Assembly: GCF_002165305.2 (NCBI RefSeq) | Contig: NZ_CP032286.1 | Location: forward strand, 1,364,001-1,428,000 | Direction: 5' to 3' | DNA length: 64,000 nt | Source of the DNA: Acinetobacter sp. WCHA55 | GTDB taxonomy: Bacteria > Pseudomonadota > Gammaproteobacteria > Pseudomonadales > Moraxellaceae | Part shown: piece after piece, positions 2,758 through 29,504 of the stretch | Position numbering within the stretch: position 1 is the first letter of the stretch | Layout: each line of letters opens with the position of its first letter | Position numbers and translations under genes: made by a program | Notes under the pieces: model-generated | What the model saw: the letters and a program-made list of their open reading frames with translations, nothing else | The model's database searches: none | What the model was told of the DNA's origin: nothing

Positions 2758-3894
2758 ATGGCTGAAGGAAAAGTCCTCACAGGCGCAGGATTGCGCGGAC
2801 AAGTCGCGGGAAAGACAGCACTATCAACCGTAGGCAAAAGCGGAGCAGGTCTAACCTACCGCGGTTATGACGTACAAGACCTCGCTGAAAACTGCCAGTT
2901 TGAAGAAGTGGCTTACTTGATCTTCTTTGGTGAACTACCAACAGCAGCACAGCTCACTGCCTATAAAGCGAAACTCAAATCACTGCGTCAACTGCCACAA
3001 GCACTCAAAGAAGTACTTGAGCGTATCCCTGCAGACTCACACCCAATGGATGTGATGCGCACAGGTGTATCGATGCTTGGTAACCTAGAAACAGAACAAT
3101 CTTTCGTAGAACAGCAAGATGTTGCAGACCGTATTCTCGCAACACTTCCAGCAATCATTTGCTACTGGTATCGTTTTAGCCATGATGGCGTGCGTATTGA
3201 AGAAAATACCGATGACGATTCAATTGGCGCTCAATTCCTGCATTTACTACATGGTGAAAAGCCAAACGAATTGCATGAGCAGGTAATGAATGTATCTTTG
3301 ATCCTTTATGCAGAGCATGAGTTCAACGCCTCTACATTTACTGCACGTGTATGTGCTTCAACTTTATCCGATATGCATTCATGCATTACAGGTGCAATTG
3401 GTTCACTACGTGGCCCATTACACGGTGGTGCCAATGAAGCTGCGATGGAAATGATTGAAAACTGGACATCAGCTGAAGAGGCTGAGCGTGAAATGTTGGG
3501 TAAATTGGAGCGTAAAGAAAAGATCATGGGCTTTGGTCATGCAATCTACAAAGACAATGATCCGCGCAATGGCATCATTAAGATTTGGTCAGAGCGCTTA
3601 GCCAAAGACGTAGGCGATACGGTGCTTTATCCAGTATCAGTCCGCTGTGAAGAAGTGATGTGGCGTGAGAAGAAATTGTTCTGTAATGCAGACTTTTTCC
3701 ATGCATCGGCATATCACTTTATGGGTATTGCAACCAAACTATTTACCCCAATCTTCGTGATGAGTCGTGTAACAGGCTGGGCAGCACATGTGATGGAGCA
3801 GCGTGCAGACAACCGTATTATTCGACCAAGTGCGGACTATACCGGGCCTGAGCTACGTAAAGTGGTGCCGATTGAAGAACGTTCAGCAGCTTAA
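2758..3894 (+). CDS. prpC: 2-methylcitrate synthase
   Basis: Condenses propionyl-CoA with oxaloacetate. It is a citrate-synthase-fold protein of 378 residues, typical for PrpC and shorter than GltA. The catalytic histidine region GPLHGGANE is at about residues 219-227 and GFGHAIYKDNDPRN begins near residue 258. It is linked to prpB and followed directly by a strong terminator, so acnD and prpF, often next in this operon, are absent here. The first third uses more C-ending codons than the rest of the gene, a possible recombination mosaic. Confidence 0.94.
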   Translation: MAEGKVLTGAGLRGQVAGKTALSTVGKSGAGLTYRGYDVQDLAENCQFEEVAYLIFFGELPTAAQLTAYKAKLKSLRQLPQALKEVLERIPADSHPMDVMRTGVSMLGNLETEQSFVEQQDVADRILATLPAIICYWYRFSHDGVRIEENTDDDSIGAQFLHLLHGEKPNELHEQVMNVSLILYAEHEFNASTFTARVCASTLSDMHSCITGAIGSLRGPLHGGANEAAMEMIENWTSAEEAEREMLGKLERKEKIMGFGHAIYKDNDPRNGIIKIWSERLAKDVGDTVLYPVSVRCEEVMWREKKLFCNADFFHASAYHFMGIATKLFTPIFVMSRVTGWAAHVMEQRADNRIIRPSADYTGPELRKVVPIEERSAA

Positions 3895-13188: not shown

Positions 13189-14490
13189 TCAATGCAATTT
13201 TATTTTTGGACCGACTTTTTTATTCATCAGGTCTTTCGCGGTCATCAACCCAGCATGGGTATAGCCATGTAAGGTAGCTTGATGGAGTCGATATAAAGAA
13301 ACATACATGGTTTTTGCCAGCACGCCTTGCACATTAACTTGGCCCAGTAGTTCGCCCACGGCTTTGTATTGGCTGAGGGAAACCAAAGAGCCTTTGTCAG
13401 AAAATTTAAACATCGGCAAAGACTGACCACGAATGCGCGCTTTAAGTGCTCGAACCAAAAAGGTCGCTTGTTGGCTGGCCACTTGGGCACGTGGGCCAAG
13501 AACTGGTTCATCGGCCGCGGGCTGGCAGTGGGCGCAATCACCAAAGGCAAAAATGTTGGGATCGGAACGGGTTTGCAAAGTTGCATAGACTTTAAGACGG
13601 CCAATCGCATCTTTTTCAAAACCTTCAAGCACGTTTAAAACGACAGGTGCTTTGATGCCAGCTGCCCAAACTTTTAGATCGGCATTGATTTGTGAGCCAT
13701 TGGCAAAATAGACATGGTCTTTATCTAACTTGGCAACACGGTGATGGGTGAGAACTTCAACGCCAAGCTTTTCCAATTGAGTATGGGTGTGTGTTGCCAT
13801 TTTGGTGGATAGGGCGGGAAGAATACGATCTGCTGCCTCAATCAAGGTCACTTTGACTTTATTTGGGTCAATTTTATTGAGACCATATTTAAAAAAGGTA
13901 CTTTTCGCATGAACCAATTCGGCAGCAAGCTCGACTCCTGTGGCACCTGCACCAATAATCGCAATATTAAGTGCGCGTGTTTCGGGGCGATTTTGTGCAT
14001 CTAAATACAAATGTAGAAGGTCTTGCTGGAAAATTTCAGCTTGCTGGCGACTGTCGAGGAAATGGCAGTAATGTTTAGCGCCGTCGGTCGCAAAGTCGTT
14101 AGAGGTCGAGCCGACTGCAAGGATTAAGGTGTCGTAATTGAGTTCAAACTGCGTGGTTTCAGTGCTTTGTTTGGCATATTGGCGTGCTTCAAGTTTTACT
14201 TGCTTATGTTCTTGGTCTAAGTCGACAAAACGACCCAAAACAAACTCATAATGATGTTTAGACGCATGTGCAAAATAATTAATTTCTTCAACACTTGGGT
14301 TGAGTGTGCCTGCCGCAATTTCATGGAGTAAGGGTTTCCAGATGTGAGTAAGGTTTTGGTCGACGAGGGTGATTTTCACCCACTTAGATTTTGCGAAGCT
14401 GTCACCGAGTTGCGTTGCTAACTCTAGACCACCAGCACCACCGCCAATAATAACAATATGGTGTGGCACTTGTTCTGTTTGTACAGCCAT
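13189..14490 (-). CDS. ndh: Type II NADH dehydrogenase-like flavoprotein
   Basis: A single-subunit NAD(P)H:quinone oxidoreductase of the peripheral membrane type. The first Rossmann motif IVIIGGGAGGLELA is at about residues 11-24; the second, IAIIGAGATGVELAAEL, lies mid-protein; the FAD-binding IFAFGDCAH motif follows near residue 310. The ATG at 14490 is preferred over an in-frame TTG at 14499. Related sulfide:quinone reductases lack this overall layout. Confidence 0.86.
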   Translation of the reverse strand: MAVQTEQVPHHIVIIGGGAGGLELATQLGDSFAKSKWVKITLVDQNLTHIWKPLLHEIAAGTLNPSVEEINYFAHASKHHYEFVLGRFVDLDQEHKQVKLEARQYAKQSTETTQFELNYDTLILAVGSTSNDFATDGAKHYCHFLDSRQQAEIFQQDLLHLYLDAQNRPETRALNIAIIGAGATGVELAAELVHAKSTFFKYGLNKIDPNKVKVTLIEAADRILPALSTKMATHTHTQLEKLGVEVLTHHRVAKLDKDHVYFANGSQINADLKVWAAGIKAPVVLNVLEGFEKDAIGRLKVYATLQTRSDPNIFAFGDCAHCQPAADEPVLGPRAQVASQQATFLVRALKARIRGQSLPMFKFSDKGSLVSLSQYKAVGELLGQVNVQGVLAKTMYVSLYRLHQATLHGYTHAGLMTAKDLMNKKVGPKIKLH

Positions 14491-14517
14491 ATGAAGCAAC
14501 CTATTTATTATTAAAAA

Positions 14518-14614: not shown

Positions 14615-15925
14615 TTAACCGAGTGTATAGGTTTTTACTTTAGATTCATCGCTTGATAAAAATGGAAACAAGCTTTTGAACCAAAACATCAGTCGCTGGA
14701 AAATATTGGCTTCTTCAATTTGTACATCTTCTTCAATAGTGAACGTTTGAATGAGCTGATTGTTTTGATAAACCTGAACTTTTGCCAGTTGCATCACTTC
14801 AGCCAGCGGAGCGGTCAGCTTGTTTTGCAACACTTCAATATTGAAATGCGTTTTTGTAGATTCTAATGGATCAATGCGTTGTATAGTGCCATTGCCTGTA
14901 TTGAGCATAATGCGTTGGTTGGTTTGGTCAAAGGCATGTAAGTCAATGGCATATGGCTGATCGTACAATGATGTGCTCACAATTTTCGGTTGCTTACTTT
15001 CCACTTTGAACATTTTCAATGTCGATTTGACTACAGGCAGTTCTGCGATAATTTGCTTATCCTTCAGCGCAACTTCATTGCGAGTATAGGTATAAGACAA
15101 ATTCATGAGGTTGTGTGCAACTTCAGCACGCTTTGCTGCACTTTCTGTACCCAATACAATCACCACCAAACGACGGTTTGGATTATCTGGGTTCATGGTC
15201 GGACGGTTTGCTGTCAGGGCTAAGTTATATCCCGCTGCTTTGGTATAACCTGTTTTCAAGCCATCGACCGTTGGGTCTTGTTTTAACAGAATATTGGTTG
15301 CACGGTGAAAACGTTGGTTATAGCTAAAACTTTGCTGTTTTGAATAGTATAAATAGTCTGGCGTTTCATTCACCAAGGCTTGGCCTAACAGCGCTAAGTC
15401 ATGAGCGGTTGAATAGTGCTCTGGCATGGTGATACCAGCAGGGTTTTGAAAATGAGTTTCAGTCATTCCCAGTGCTTTGGCTTCTTGGTTCATTCGTGCA
15501 ACAAAGGTTGGAATATCACCTGAGATGCGTTCTGCTAAAGTCACTGCTGCGTCGTTGGCAGACATCACCACTAAACCGGCTAAAAGCTGATCCACAGAAA
15601 TCTGTTCGCCTTGTTTTAAGTACATTTGGGATTCATCCCACATCACAGTACTGACCACAGGCGTTGCAGTAAGAATTTCGCTCTTATTGAGTTTCCCTGC
15701 ATTAATTTCTTTGAGTGCAATATATGCCACCATCATTTTGGTGAGCGAAGCGGGTGCACGTTGAACATGACTATTATGCTCAGCAATGACTTGCCCCGAT
15801 TGGCTGTCAAAAACAGTCCAAGCTTGAGCTTCAACTGTTTCAGGAACAATGTTGAGCAATGCTGCTTGAGTGAAACTTGAACATAAGGCGAAGAGTGTAG
15901 CGATGAAGTAGATGACAGCTTTCAA
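14615..15925 (-). CDS. dacC: D-alanyl-D-alanine carboxypeptidase (PBP5/6 family)
   Basis: Trims the terminal D-Ala from peptidoglycan pentapeptides in the periplasm. Residues 1-21 form a signal peptide. The active-site serine is S60 in SLTK (60-63); the second motif SAN is near residue 121 and KTG is in GLKTGYTK near residue 225. A C-terminal domain ends in an amphipathic stretch that could anchor it to the membrane. At 436 residues it is slightly longer than E. coli PBP5. Confidence 0.92.
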   Translation of the reverse strand: MKAVIYFIATLFALCSSFTQAALLNIVPETVEAQAWTVFDSQSGQVIAEHNSHVQRAPASLTKMMVAYIALKEINAGKLNKSEILTATPVVSTVMWDESQMYLKQGEQISVDQLLAGLVVMSANDAAVTLAERISGDIPTFVARMNQEAKALGMTETHFQNPAGITMPEHYSTAHDLALLGQALVNETPDYLYYSKQQSFSYNQRFHRATNILLKQDPTVDGLKTGYTKAAGYNLALTANRPTMNPDNPNRRLVVIVLGTESAAKRAEVAHNLMNLSYTYTRNEVALKDKQIIAELPVVKSTLKMFKVESKQPKIVSTSLYDQPYAIDLHAFDQTNQRIMLNTGNGTIQRIDPLESTKTHFNIEVLQNKLTAPLAEVMQLAKVQVYQNNQLIQTFTIEEDVQIEEANIFQRLMFWFKSLFPFLSSDESKVKTYTLG

Positions 15926-26571: not shown

Positions 26572-26621
26572 AGTTTACCAAAGGAAACTCTATAGTCAAG
26601 TTAAAGTTTACTAAAGGAAAC
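26572..26621 (-). promoter_or_regulatory. Left early promoter with two repressor operators
   Basis: Minus-strand -35 TTGACT (26599-26594), 16-nt spacer and -10 TAAACT (26577-26572). Operators GTTTACCAAAGGAAAC (26573-26588) and GTTTACTAAAGGAAAC (26606-26621) are 33 bp apart; the first covers the -10 and spacer. The second is identical to one at the cI-cro switch, so CI should repress this promoter. Confidence 0.8.
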
Positions 26622-26648: not shown

Positions 26649-26665
26649 CCTGCCACTTGGGCAGG
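26649..26665 (-). terminator. Terminator of the cI operon
   Basis: CCTGCC/GGCAGG stem. On the minus strand it is followed by TTTTATTTT. It lies just beyond the last gene of the lysogenic operon. Confidence 0.75.
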
Positions 26666-26697: not shown

Positions 26698-27162
26698 TTA
26701 AGGTAAAAAGCTTTCTAGTTTAGAGAGTAAAGTTATTGATTTCTGAATAATGTCATCTAGTTTTTTCTCTTTATCTGGAAAATCTAAAATCTGCATTGAT
26801 TTATTTTCGATCGGGGTGTCGCTAAAGATTAAATCCTTGTAATCTTCAATTAGGGTATTTATTAAATTTCTATTTATTTCAATTTGTGCTTTGGAATTAT
26901 AAAATTTTCCAGTAGGAAATGTCTTTACATCCAATTGAACTAAGTCAAGAAACATAGAAATCCGAGGGTAAACATCTGCTTTCATAGTTTGATTTGCAAA
27001 TACTTCAATACATACCTTATTGATTTCTTTGATATTATCGGTGATATTTTTCAGAATTCTAAGTTGATTAGTCTCATGATTTTTGTAAAGAAAACTAATC
27101 AAAGCAAATACAAAACCAAAAAAAGCAAATGCTAATTTTGCATCAATTGAATTTAGCATCAT
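26698..27162 (-). CDS. Single-pass membrane protein of the cI operon
   Basis: 154 residues. A transmembrane helix spans about residues 9-26 (KLAFAFFGFVFALISFLYKN), and the remaining ~125 residues are soluble and helical. It overlaps the STAS-like gene by 20 bp and is last in the operon with cI. By analogy with rexB it could be a membrane effector or anchor for the two upstream proteins. There is no sequence similarity to RexB that I can see. Confidence 0.68.
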   Translation of the reverse strand: MMLNSIDAKLAFAFFGFVFALISFLYKNHETNQLRILKNITDNIKEINKVCIEVFANQTMKADVYPRISMFLDLVQLDVKTFPTGKFYNSKAQIEINRNLINTLIEDYKDLIFSDTPIENKSMQILDFPDKEKKLDDIIQKSITLLSKLESFLP

Positions 27163-27475
27163 CTATATACTCAAAAATTCTATCTTTAATTATTTTTCGA
27201 GGACTAATAATCTCAAGAACTTGATGTAATTTTTTTCTATCAAATCCTTCAACTCTAACTAAACCTCCAAAGCTTTCCTCTAAAAAAGATGACCCAGCCA
27301 TTGTTACTAGCGAGAAATCTAAAATCAATTTTTGGCCTGATGTAAGTTTTTTTAAATTTGGTACTAAGACTTCTTCTCTGAATTTTTGGCCAGAATGCTC
27401 GCCGTCAGTATAAAAACGACCAGCCGGACGCGGGTAGAATTGCTCACCAACATTAATTCTGATGTGATTGTCCAT
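27143..27475 (-). CDS. STAS-like DUF4325 protein
   Basis: 110 residues. The segment PAGRFYTDGEHSGQKFREE and the core LILDFSLVTMAGSSFLEESFGG are typical of DUF4325, a STAS-like domain often encoded next to histidine-kinase-type ATPases. ATG 27475 has AAGG upstream; the longer frame to 27547 overlaps the ATPase gene. In sigma-factor switches, STAS proteins are phosphorylated by such ATPases on Ser/Thr, here possibly in MAGSSF. Confidence 0.78.
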   Translation of the reverse strand: MDNHIRINVGEQFYPRPAGRFYTDGEHSGQKFREEVLVPNLKKLTSGQKLILDFSLVTMAGSSFLEESFGGLVRVEGFDRKKLHQVLEIISPRKIIKDRIFEYIDDAKFN

Positions 27476-27485
27476 GATAATAACC

Positions 27486-28454
27486 TTAAGAATTTTGTGA
27501 TGATAAAGAGTTTTCAATAGGGATACTCCAGTAAACAATTGTTCCATTTACTGGCTCAGCATAAGACTTTTTACCTTGTTCAGAGGACCAAGCACCATTT
27601 CTACTGAGAACATGAATGTAAGTATCACTTCTTACATCTTTAACCTGAATAATATTATCAAATCCTTTGCCTCTGTGTGAGTCATTTGTTGAACTCTTTC
27701 TCCATGTTGTTGCTAATTCAATCCGATCGGCATCAGATTTTTCACTCCATTTAATTTGAAGAGAATCTTTAATTTTTTCTCCCAAGGATTTTGGGGCAGT
27801 CTTAGGAATTGTTCTGCCTAGGTCGGAAATAATAATGTCACATCGTTTGTCAGAAATACCTACAAATAACAGCCACTTTTTATAATGTGTACTTTTATCA
27901 TATCCGTGATGTACAACATTTGATACAGCTTCAGAAATAGCAGTACTGACAATAAACTCTTCATCAGCATCATTTAAAACTTCATGTAAGGCATCTTGTA
28001 TTTCTACAAACTCCTCACCAAAATCTGCACTCTCACCCATCAAATAGTACCAACGGTCAACCACTTTATGCTTAAACTCAAATGAGGGAAGTCCCATTCT
28101 GCCATGCACTCCCAATTTACTTAGCATGGATTTGACAATTGGTGATTGGGAGGTTCTACCTTTAATATTAAGAGTAGATAACTTTGCTAATTGATGCAAA
28201 AAATGAATTGTACCATCAGGCATTAGTGTATCAACTTTATAAAAATCAATATAACAACTTTGACCTGACGAATATTTCATACGCATTTTTTCAATATTAC
28301 GAAGGACATTGTCCCGATATTGGCTATTAAAAAGCGATAATTTTTGTGGCATTCCCAGATGATACTTGGGATTTCCCTTCTTTTTATAACTTTCCAAATT
28401 ATATAAATTAAGTAATTTTATTCTTAATCTTTCTTTGCTTGAAATTTTTTTCAT
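27486..28454 (-). CDS. STAS-like plus GHKL ATPase protein
   Basis: 322 residues from ATG 28454. Residues about 60-100 look STAS-like (CYIDFYKVDTLMPDG). The C-terminal half is a HATPase_c domain: N box ISEAVSNVVHHG (173-184), G1-like DLGRTIP (211-217) and G2 box RGKGFDNI (261-268). No histidine phosphorylation domain is seen, so it resembles RsbW-type protein kinases more than sensor kinases. It starts 16 bp after the cI stop and should be expressed in the lysogen. Confidence 0.78.
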   Translation of the reverse strand: MKKISSKERLRIKLLNLYNLESYKKKGNPKYHLGMPQKLSLFNSQYRDNVLRNIEKMRMKYSSGQSCYIDFYKVDTLMPDGTIHFLHQLAKLSTLNIKGRTSQSPIVKSMLSKLGVHGRMGLPSFEFKHKVVDRWYYLMGESADFGEEFVEIQDALHEVLNDADEEFIVSTAISEAVSNVVHHGYDKSTHYKKWLLFVGISDKRCDIIISDLGRTIPKTAPKSLGEKIKDSLQIKWSEKSDADRIELATTWRKSSTNDSHRGKGFDNIIQVKDVRSDTYIHVLSRNGAWSSEQGKKSYAEPVNGTIVYWSIPIENSLSSQNS

Positions 28455-28470
28455 TACCTTACCTACGAGT

Positions 28471-29214
28471 TCATCCTGCACGCCAAAATTGGCGACCCAT
28501 AACTCTAAAATTCAATCCATTTTGTTCAGTGACTTCTCTATCACGGTACTTTGGATTAATGCTGTGCAGACTTAATTTTCCACCTTCTTCTTTAAATATT
28601 TGCTTGATCATTCCTTCACCCTCAAAATAAATGGCATAAATTCCACCATCTACAATTTCTGTTTGAGAAATGTCAATACCAACCAAATCACCATCATTGA
28701 TAAAATCAGCCATGCTATCGCCTTTGGCTTTAATAATTCTCATACAGTCTGGGTCAACATACTTTTTTTGAAAGAATGATGGTGGGAAAGGGAATTTACC
28801 GTTAATAACATCAAAATGAAATTCAATAGATTCTCCAGTACCACAAGAAAAATTAGCTTCTACGACATCAATCCAAATGAAACCATTTTCAATTTCGTGA
28901 TCTACAACTGTGGGTTTGTGTAGATCATTTACATCAAATGATGATTCATTTTTTTTTGCAAGGCCATGTTTATTCATAAATTCTTGCATATTAAAATTAG
29001 TAATTGCTTTCTCTTCGCTACCAGTTAGTAACCAATTTTGTGAAGTTTTTAAAATTATCGCTAGTGATGGAAGGAATTCAGCTTTAGGTACATTTGTGCC
29101 TGCAACCCACTTTGATACAGCCCCTTTAGTAGCACCCGTTGCTTCTACAATATCAACTTGTCGAACACCTAGTTCTTTCATTCTTTTAATTATTCGATCG
29201 CGAATTGTGTCCAT
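28471..29214 (-). CDS. CI-like phage repressor with S24 peptidase domain
   Basis: 247 residues. An N-terminal helix-turn-helix (about 17-45) precedes a LexA-type autoprotease: a probable cleavage site C124-G125, nucleophile S167 in GDSM and general base K204. ATG 29214 with AGAGGA is chosen; the longer frame to 29250 runs into an operator. It should hold the lysogenic state and be inactivated by RecA-stimulated self-cleavage. It is the first gene of a four-gene operon. Confidence 0.9.
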   Translation of the reverse strand: MDTIRDRIIKRMKELGVRQVDIVEATGATKGAVSKWVAGTNVPKAEFLPSLAIILKTSQNWLLTGSEEKAITNFNMQEFMNKHGLAKKNESSFDVNDLHKPTVVDHEIENGFIWIDVVEANFSCGTGESIEFHFDVINGKFPFPPSFFQKKYVDPDCMRIIKAKGDSMADFINDGDLVGIDISQTEIVDGGIYAIYFEGEGMIKQIFKEEGGKLSLHSINPKYRDREVTEQNGLNFRVMGRQFWRAG

Positions 29215-29232: not shown

Positions 29233-29314
29233 GTTTCCTATAGTAAACATTTACATTGATTGGTGGAGAAACTTGTGGTTTACTAAAGGAAACTATTAGT
29301 TTATTAAGGTAAAC
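29233..29314. promoter_or_regulatory. cI-cro control region with three operators
   Basis: Three 16-bp sites: GTTTCCTATAGTAAAC (29233-29248), GTTTACTAAAGGAAAC (29278-29293) and GTTTATTAAGGTAAAC (29299-29314). The middle site covers a plausible rightward -10 TTTACT (29279-29284; -35 TTGATT at 29256). The third overlaps the cro ribosome-binding site, and the first lies just before the cI start. Confidence 0.85.
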
Positions 29315-29315
29315 C

Positions 29316-29504
29316 ATGACTGTTGATGATTTAAAAAAACATTACGGGTTCAAATCTGATGCTGAATTGGCTCGAAAGTTAAAACATACACGTGGAACAA
29401 TCTGTAAATGGCGCTACGGTGGAATTCCAATTGATAGGCAAGCAAGACTTCAGCTCTTAACTAATGGTGATGTTAAGGCAAGTATTGCAGTGTTTTTAGC
29501 TTAG
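29316..29504 (+). CDS. Cro-like regulator
   Basis: A 62-residue helix-turn-helix protein: KSDAELARKLKHTRGTICKWRYGGIPIDRQ aligns with Cro-type DNA-binding domains (the motif spans about residues 13-42). It diverges from cI and is the first gene of the rightward operon. Its ribosome-binding site AAGG is inside the third operator, so repressor binding and translation signals share the same bases. Confidence 0.85.
   Translation: MTVDDLKKHYGFKSDAELARKLKHTRGTICKWRYGGIPIDRQARLQLLTNGDVKASIAVFLA

Follow-up and report, generated by a model that had tools for sequence, protein, structure and literature searches.

What does a temperate phage gain by carrying a kinase, a STAS-like protein and a membrane protein directly behind its cI repressor? 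This question is raised by a prophage in the chromosome of Acinetobacter sp. WCHA55, which was analyzed within a stretch of 64,000 nucleotides (contig NZ_CP032286.1, positions 1,364,001 to 1,428,000; hereafter the window, whose numbering is used throughout). We propose that the three genes form a mobile switch composed of a kinase, a STAS antitoxin and an effector, that the switch is a sister of the VapKSC system with a membrane effector, and that it probably serves the lysogen as a weapon against other phages; this reading is held with moderate confidence.

Kinase and STAS-like protein

All genes of the unit lie on the minus strand. The cI-type repressor (28471..29214, 247 residues, a helix-turn-helix (HTH) domain and an S24 peptidase) is followed after 16 bp by a STAS-GHKL serine-kinase-like protein (27486..28454, 322 residues, with a basic N-terminal helix) and, 10 bp further, by a DUF4325 STAS-like protein (27143..27475, 110 residues, PF14213 E-value 2.2e-13), the likely kinase substrate and effector inhibitor. 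The third gene overlaps the second by 20 bp and encodes a small membrane protein (26698..27162, 154 residues), the likely effector, with an N-terminal transmembrane (TM) segment at about residues 8-26 and a four-helix bundle that is probably cytoplasmic. A hairpin resembling an intrinsic terminator (26649..26665, minus strand) ends the cI-cassette unit. This layout confirms the three-gene cassette behind cI, with the spacing and terminator given in the initial annotation, and the domain calls made there (kinase-type ATPase, DUF4325 STAS protein, single-TM protein) are supported.

A recent study described two kinase-STAS systems (PMC13373217, EMBO J, June 2026). CapK phosphorylates CapS at a STAS serine in the presence of single-stranded DNA (ssDNA). 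In VapKSC, the STAS protein VapS keeps VapC inactive by binding it, a phosphomimetic VapS loses both the binding and the neutralization of VapC, and phosphorylation of VapS was proposed to release the toxin; phosphorylation by VapK itself is not shown in the parts of the study that deal with VapKSC. The VapKSC operon gave about 2 log protection against at least one phage (PMC13373217). The main text of that paper does not mention DUF4325, and its four uses of "membrane" refer to stress agents and blotting membranes. The initial annotation had stated that no function was described for this gene combination; this no longer holds for the kinase-STAS part, given CapKS and VapKSC, but it stands for the whole, as no description of a kinase-DUF4325-membrane cassette was found in the literature (open-licence PMC papers).

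The cassette kinase has a GHKL serine-kinase fold in which the N-box glutamate and asparagine (E175 and N179) are present. In profile comparisons with hhalign, whose E-values refer to single comparisons, it matched five VapK-like proteins (probability 99.2, E 9.1e-20) and 111 of 120 fetched VapK homologues (probability 96.7, E 4.6e-10), and its N-terminal part alone matched the VapK N-terminus (probability 83.6, E 8.1e-6). A PDB sequence search with this N-terminal part found no STAS protein, and its hhalign comparison with DUF4325 was not significant, so the call of an N-terminal STAS domain is an indirect one made through VapK. A domain scan gave no HTH match on the kinase, and the structure model places a single helix (residues 6-24) before the STAS-like region. 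The first gene thus appears to encode a STAS domain joined to a GHKL kinase without an HTH.

The DUF4325 domain spans residues 28-91 of the second protein. When the family profile was compared with the PDB, VapS (9z7o) was the top match (E 4.4e-4), followed by the STAS protein 3t6o (E 0.17); the single sequence found VapS as its sole match up to E 1 (E 0.27). Serine 62 lies opposite VapS S48 in two alignments (the S48 numbering assumes an 18-residue tag). Among 34 family members this position is occupied by serine in 29, threonine in one, proline in three and alanine in one, and the neighboring S63 is found in all 34. In addition, one of the loci found through PF14213 (L075) is vapKSC itself (PIN domain E 5.2e-8), which places VapS-like proteins and the window gene in one Pfam family. 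On the evidence of these profiles, the cassette kinase and DUF4325 protein are a pair homologous to VapK and VapS.

The cassette therefore resembles VapKSC (Escherichia sp. E4736; PDB 9Z7O; PMC13373217) in being a three-gene operon for a STAS-GHKL kinase, a STAS protein and an effector, in the homology of the first two proteins and in the serine aligned with VapS S48. It differs in that VapC is a PIN nuclease whereas the third gene here encodes a membrane four-helix bundle, and in the basic N-terminal helix of its kinase. CapK and CapS (PDB 9Z71-9Z73; PMC13373217) share the arrangement in which a STAS-GHKL kinase precedes its STAS substrate. However, CapK carries an HTH, and CapS, a regulator of transcription, has a winged HTH after its STAS domain; no DNA-binding domain was seen in the cassette, where the domain scan gave no HTH match behind the STAS domain of the DUF4325 protein, and one kind of third gene is present in place of a variable immune operon.

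The GHKL part of the kinase has the SpoIIAB fold in structure comparison, and SpoIIAB and RsbW are its closest relatives in both fold and sequence. Together with the STAS-like partner, this could indicate a classical RsbW/RsbV partner switch that acts on a sigma factor or on the phage repressor and uses the membrane protein as an anchor. We regard this as very unlikely. The cassette kinase, in contrast to SpoIIAB and RsbW, is fused to a STAS-like domain of its own, its partner set includes a membrane protein, and the cassette has no sigma-factor gene; no sigma-factor match was found among the 10 neighborhood proteins scanned, genes farther off not having been scanned. The DUF4325 profile finds VapS, and up to E 1 it retrieves neither SpoIIAA nor RsbV from the PDB; the cassette is accompanied by varied repressors or by none.

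The membrane protein and the three-gene unit

An AlphaFold2 model of the third protein (predicted local distance difference test score 88.9) contains helices at residues 3-55, 64-81, 91-113 and 131-150. No PIN domain was matched in the third protein of the window, of Marinobacter phage AS1 or of 7 other loci. The third gene encodes no VapC; its product is all-helical in the model, a membrane-anchored four-helix bundle. No Pfam or PADLOC model was found for this membrane-protein family.

The conservation of the unit was examined in 37 loci picked because they contain the kinase, this type of DUF4325 protein or both (loci carry L numbers). Two of them repeat others: L027 equals L014, and the cassette of L032 equals that of L004 at 99.85%; 35 loci are left once L027 and L032 are removed. 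L030 equals L004; L002, L003, L011 and L017 all come from the window region itself, and L018-L024 are shorter copies of loci otherwise counted. L009 and L010 were dropped as relatives; by eye, L010 is an ordinary rsbV-rsbW-sigma locus. In a further search, 19 of 30 genomes were left out as nothing but short stretches matched in them, within the GHKL core (E 1.2e-6 to 7.5e-4).

An open reading frame (ORF) of 100-260 residues lies immediately 3' of the DUF4325 gene in 35 of the 37 loci, and in 34 of these 35 it has a 19-residue hydrophobicity of at least 1.5 within its first 75 residues. Background ORFs of 120-230 residues from the same loci have such an N-terminal segment in 41 of 161 cases, and one anywhere in the ORF in 60 of 161. 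As to the two loci that lack the adjoining ORF, a transposase-like ORF intervenes in L093, whose third gene shares 28% identity with that of L130, and L131 is degenerate. A third-gene profile was built from 21 tabulated loci and the window, and only held-out matches were counted; 5 of 7 intact held-out loci match it at 5e-7 or better. In 175 Acinetobacter genomes, a contig of A. stercoris included, the kinase was found in 7 and the DUF4325 protein in the same 7. Across 32 loci the protein distances are correlated for kinase and DUF4325 protein (0.73), kinase and third protein (0.81) and DUF4325 protein and third protein (0.64), each value being reached in 0 of 2000 permutations.

Such a constant partner might also be a sensor: the membrane protein would perceive an event at the membrane, phage entry for example, and inform the kinase/DUF4325 pair, and the output would be another protein. 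We consider this unlikely. By eye, no conserved output gene stands beside the cassette in the neighborhoods listed, the neighbors not having been annotated systematically; the genes are arranged as in VapK-VapS-VapC, a system in which the effector comes third; and of the three proteins the membrane protein diverges most rapidly (median pairwise identity 0.13, vs 0.22 and 0.37 for the other two).

The PF14213 search gave 30 loci besides a 31st match, the window itself. Of these, 21 were left aside: 13 contain DUF4325 proteins of another type (vapKS-like or fused), and the profile identified no ORF in 8. L075 holds a clear vapKSC operon (L075:4027-5933; kinase, STAS and PIN proteins), for whose kinase a protein search names Gallaecimonas pentaromativorans. 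In L073 (L073:2133-9091), a vapKS-like pair is accompanied by two restriction genes, one encoding a type III enzyme and the other type IV-like. L077, L085, L092 and L094, from four genomes of one family, carry DUF4325-type ORFs that lie, by eye, beside an alanyl-tRNA synthetase-like gene; that of L077 is a fused protein of 426 residues.

Setting in prophages, plasmids and chromosomes

In lambda, rexAB lies between cI and the left operator OL. The initial annotation had likened the position of the cassette to that of rexAB, and this is supported, and strengthened, by matching operator-like sites that flank cI and the cassette. When up to 3 mismatches are allowed, the 16-mer GTTTCCTTTAGTAAAC has 6 matches in the 64 kb of the window where 0.85 are expected, and 6 were reached in 0 of 100 shuffles. 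The matches represent five places, one of which is matched on both strands, and none lies elsewhere in the window. Three are found between cI and cro (29233-29314): an OR-like site at 29233..29248 (plus strand), an exact one at 29278..29293 (minus strand) and one with 3 mismatches at 29299..29314 (minus strand). The other two, both OL-like and on the minus strand, stand just beyond the cassette terminator (26573-26621), at 26573..26588 with 1 mismatch and at 26606..26621 with an exact match. A pL-like promoter (TTGACT-16-TAAACT, 26572..26599, minus strand, 9 of 12 matches) overlaps the site at 26573-26588 and is directed away from the cassette and into the leftward operon; the number of promoter-like sites in this region does not exceed that in shuffles (15 vs 16.3). 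We read the sites as OR and OL, to which CI would bind. If they are, the cassette occupies a position like that of rexAB.

Operator-like repeats also flank the cassette on both sides in L012 (equaled in 1 of 40 shuffles) and in Marinobacter phage AS1 (L001; 0 of 40), and were not found on both sides in the cI-adjacent loci L025 and L088; simple base shuffles were used for these loci.

The place between cI and an OL-like region, on the cI strand, and the membrane protein presumably made in the lysogen are what a Rex-like or Sie-like superinfection exclusion would have, in which the membrane protein is constitutive and the kinase pair merely tunes it. Soluble protein plus membrane protein is common to both rexAB and the cassette. 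Nevertheless, we consider such an exclusion distinctly unlikely, given that the cassette is also maintained at a distance from cI and outside phages. It also differs from rexAB in its three genes and its kinase-type switch, and no homology was detected: no Rex family appeared among the Pfam or PHROGs matches of the cassette region up to E 1, in libraries that we take to contain Rex models.

The initial annotation predicted that the three genes would be conserved together in other phages, and they are found so in AS1 and in Francisella phage KIRK. In AS1 (AS1_41-39) the kinase, DUF4325 and TM proteins are encoded immediately 3' of a CI-type repressor; the kinase has about 23% identity, and the AS1 annotation proposes no function. 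In KIRK, the consecutive genes Fhv_0045-0048 encode CI, a 293-residue AS1-like protein (23%) and then proteins with DUF4325 and with a TM segment, and no function is proposed for Fhv_0046-0048 in the part of the paper that covers them (PMC7924643). Both cassettes thus resemble that of the window in lying 3' of a cI-type repressor, with products annotated as hypothetical, DUF4325 or TM proteins. L012, L025 and L088 have the cassette 3' of S24 repressors. The DNA of L025 is 79.4% identical to window 26699-28881, from inside cI through the end of the membrane gene, and the N-terminus of its repressor differs from that of the window cI. A blastn search with the whole region against phages gave only cI matches among the 20 records listed of 21, tblastn with the cassette proteins found 0 to 3 records per search among phages and plasmids, and a search of E. 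coli genomes with vapKSC DNA had no match.

A general link to cI finds no support. A cI-type repressor adjoins the cassette in six cases (the window, L012, L025, L088, AS1 and KIRK), five of them from the set of 37 loci; elsewhere the cassette has as its neighbor an integrase gene (L015), a BRO antirepressor gene (L016) or a portal gene (L026), and further copies are on plasmids (L032-L034) and in chromosomes.

Among Acinetobacter plasmids, the cassette seems to move as a dif module. The A. stercoris locus L004 and plasmid pB18-6 (L032) have in common a 2059-bp segment, 99.85% identical, that contains just the cassette; a 653-bp stretch to the left of the L004 cassette matches pB18-6 at 91.6%, but is located 1.2 kb away there. 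XerC/XerD-like sites in opposite orientation, with 1 or 2 mismatches to the pdif consensus, form the exact edges of the segments (sites at 639 and 2674 in L004 and at 3041 and 5076 in L032; segments L004:639-2701 and L032:3041-5103). Such sites are also present on both sides of the L029 cassette (L029:5185-10609), which like those of L004 and L032 stands on an Acinetobacter contig of plasmid type, and are absent or weak at L028 and L026.

Many plasmid toxin-antitoxin genes are bounded by XerC/XerD-like sites. The cassette might likewise be a selfish addiction module, a toxin-antitoxin that stabilizes prophages and plasmids with no evolved anti-phage role. Besides the segment between XerC/XerD-like sites, its presence on plasmids pB18-6, plas4 and Leptospira p4, each time adjoining toxin-antitoxin-like genes, in prophages and near transposase-like genes speaks for this. 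The many chromosomal copies, the additional kinase, which implies a triggered output, and the phage protection given by the VapKSC relatives speak against it. We consider addiction alone unlikely, and it is compatible with an anti-phage switch.

Defense genes adjoin some copies. In L083 (1757-5734) the cassette lies directly 3' of a type I-B retron (reverse transcriptase 4.7e-132, ATPase-Toprim 6.7e-184); in L127 (3105-8229) it lies directly 3' of genes matching PD-T4-4_A, PDC-M41A/M30A and PDC-M41B/M30B, likely a defense island; and L033 has an FRG-domain gene matching PDC-S15 nearby. These named cases are the only ones used from a PADLOC scan of 124 proteins that matched 176 families, mostly generic ATPases among the 25 listed. 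A defense context thus seems to exist, although not shown as a rule.

As to the remainder of the prophage, terminase, portal, head protease and tail genes were identified. A Cro-like repressor of 62 residues (29316..29504, plus strand) matches phrog_409 (1.4e-13) and, under the family cut-off, PF14549 P22_Cro (6.0e-6). An Rfam search of window 25-31 kb gave zero matches. The neighboring minus-strand ORFs at 13189-14499 and 14615-15925 both encode 436 residues and are possibly tandem paralogues.

A proposed membrane-directed switch

Since the first two proteins are homologues of VapK and VapS with the needed residues, the logic of VapKSC is the best inference for the cassette, with the membrane protein in the place of VapC. 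The earlier idea of a phosphorylation switch acting on a membrane effector gains support from this homology. The cassette would be expressed together with cI in the lysogen, and at rest the DUF4325 protein would bind and restrain the membrane protein, as VapS does VapC. A trigger, most likely a sign of infection by a foreign phage, would activate the STAS-GHKL kinase, which would phosphorylate the DUF4325 protein on Ser62 or Ser63, by analogy with VapS S48 and CapS S54. The freed membrane protein may then stop growth or damage the membrane, limiting the infecting phage.

Two natural variants bear on the polarity. Transposase-like genes split the kinase in L029 (7325-10490; an Acinetobacter contig with a mobilization-like gene nearby), and L083 keeps just a kinase fragment; the DUF4325 and membrane genes remain open in both despite the damaged kinase. 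These two cases fit, as weak evidence, a kinase that activates and a DUF4325 protein that restrains.

Several observations weigh against the proposed anti-phage switch. The phospho-acceptor is ambiguous, as S62 aligns with VapS S48 yet varies in 5 of 34 members while S63 is invariant. The aromatic residue that contacts ssDNA (CapK W68, VapK F54) could not be mapped onto the window kinase, and the aligned VapK homologues may be another subfamily. Comparison of the membrane protein with PDB folds gave generic helical bundles only, with no specific fold and no known toxin matched, and the third protein of L084 has no TM segment. The third-gene profile matches L129 weakly (0.0046) and does not match L130 or L007; its Acinetobacter type reaches just 3 of the 7 genus genomes, because the third protein diverges fastest. 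No PADLOC model matched the window kinase, DUF4325 protein or membrane protein up to E 10, and many chromosomal copies lie, by eye, among housekeeping-like genes, not in defense islands. Finally, a trigger based on DNA damage would fit poorly with a cI-linked cassette because SOS also induces the phage, so that the lysogen would be hit at prophage induction.

In its broadest form, the cassette would represent a widespread, hitherto undescribed class of phosphorylation-triggered immune or suicide switches with a new family of membrane-anchored four-helix-bundle effectors. The temperate phages that carry it directly behind cI would represent at least three host genera (Acinetobacter, Marinobacter and Francisella); in two of these genera matching operator-like sites lie on its far side, and it would belong to the defense programme of the lysogen. 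On Acinetobacter plasmids it would be a XerC/XerD-type module. We see the chances of this wider claim as evenly balanced.

A VapKSC-related switch with a membrane protein at its end, in place of a toxin that cuts RNA, would be a new variant of the kinase-STAS-effector systems. If this is true, the design known from VapKSC and CapKS extends from nucleases and transcription to membranes, the cassette supplies a candidate family of small membrane effectors, and proteins annotated merely as STAS-like or DUF4325 acquire a role. A recurrent three-gene block in the rexAB slot of lambda, the most revealing position that a temperate phage genome offers, would thereby gain a concrete and testable function.
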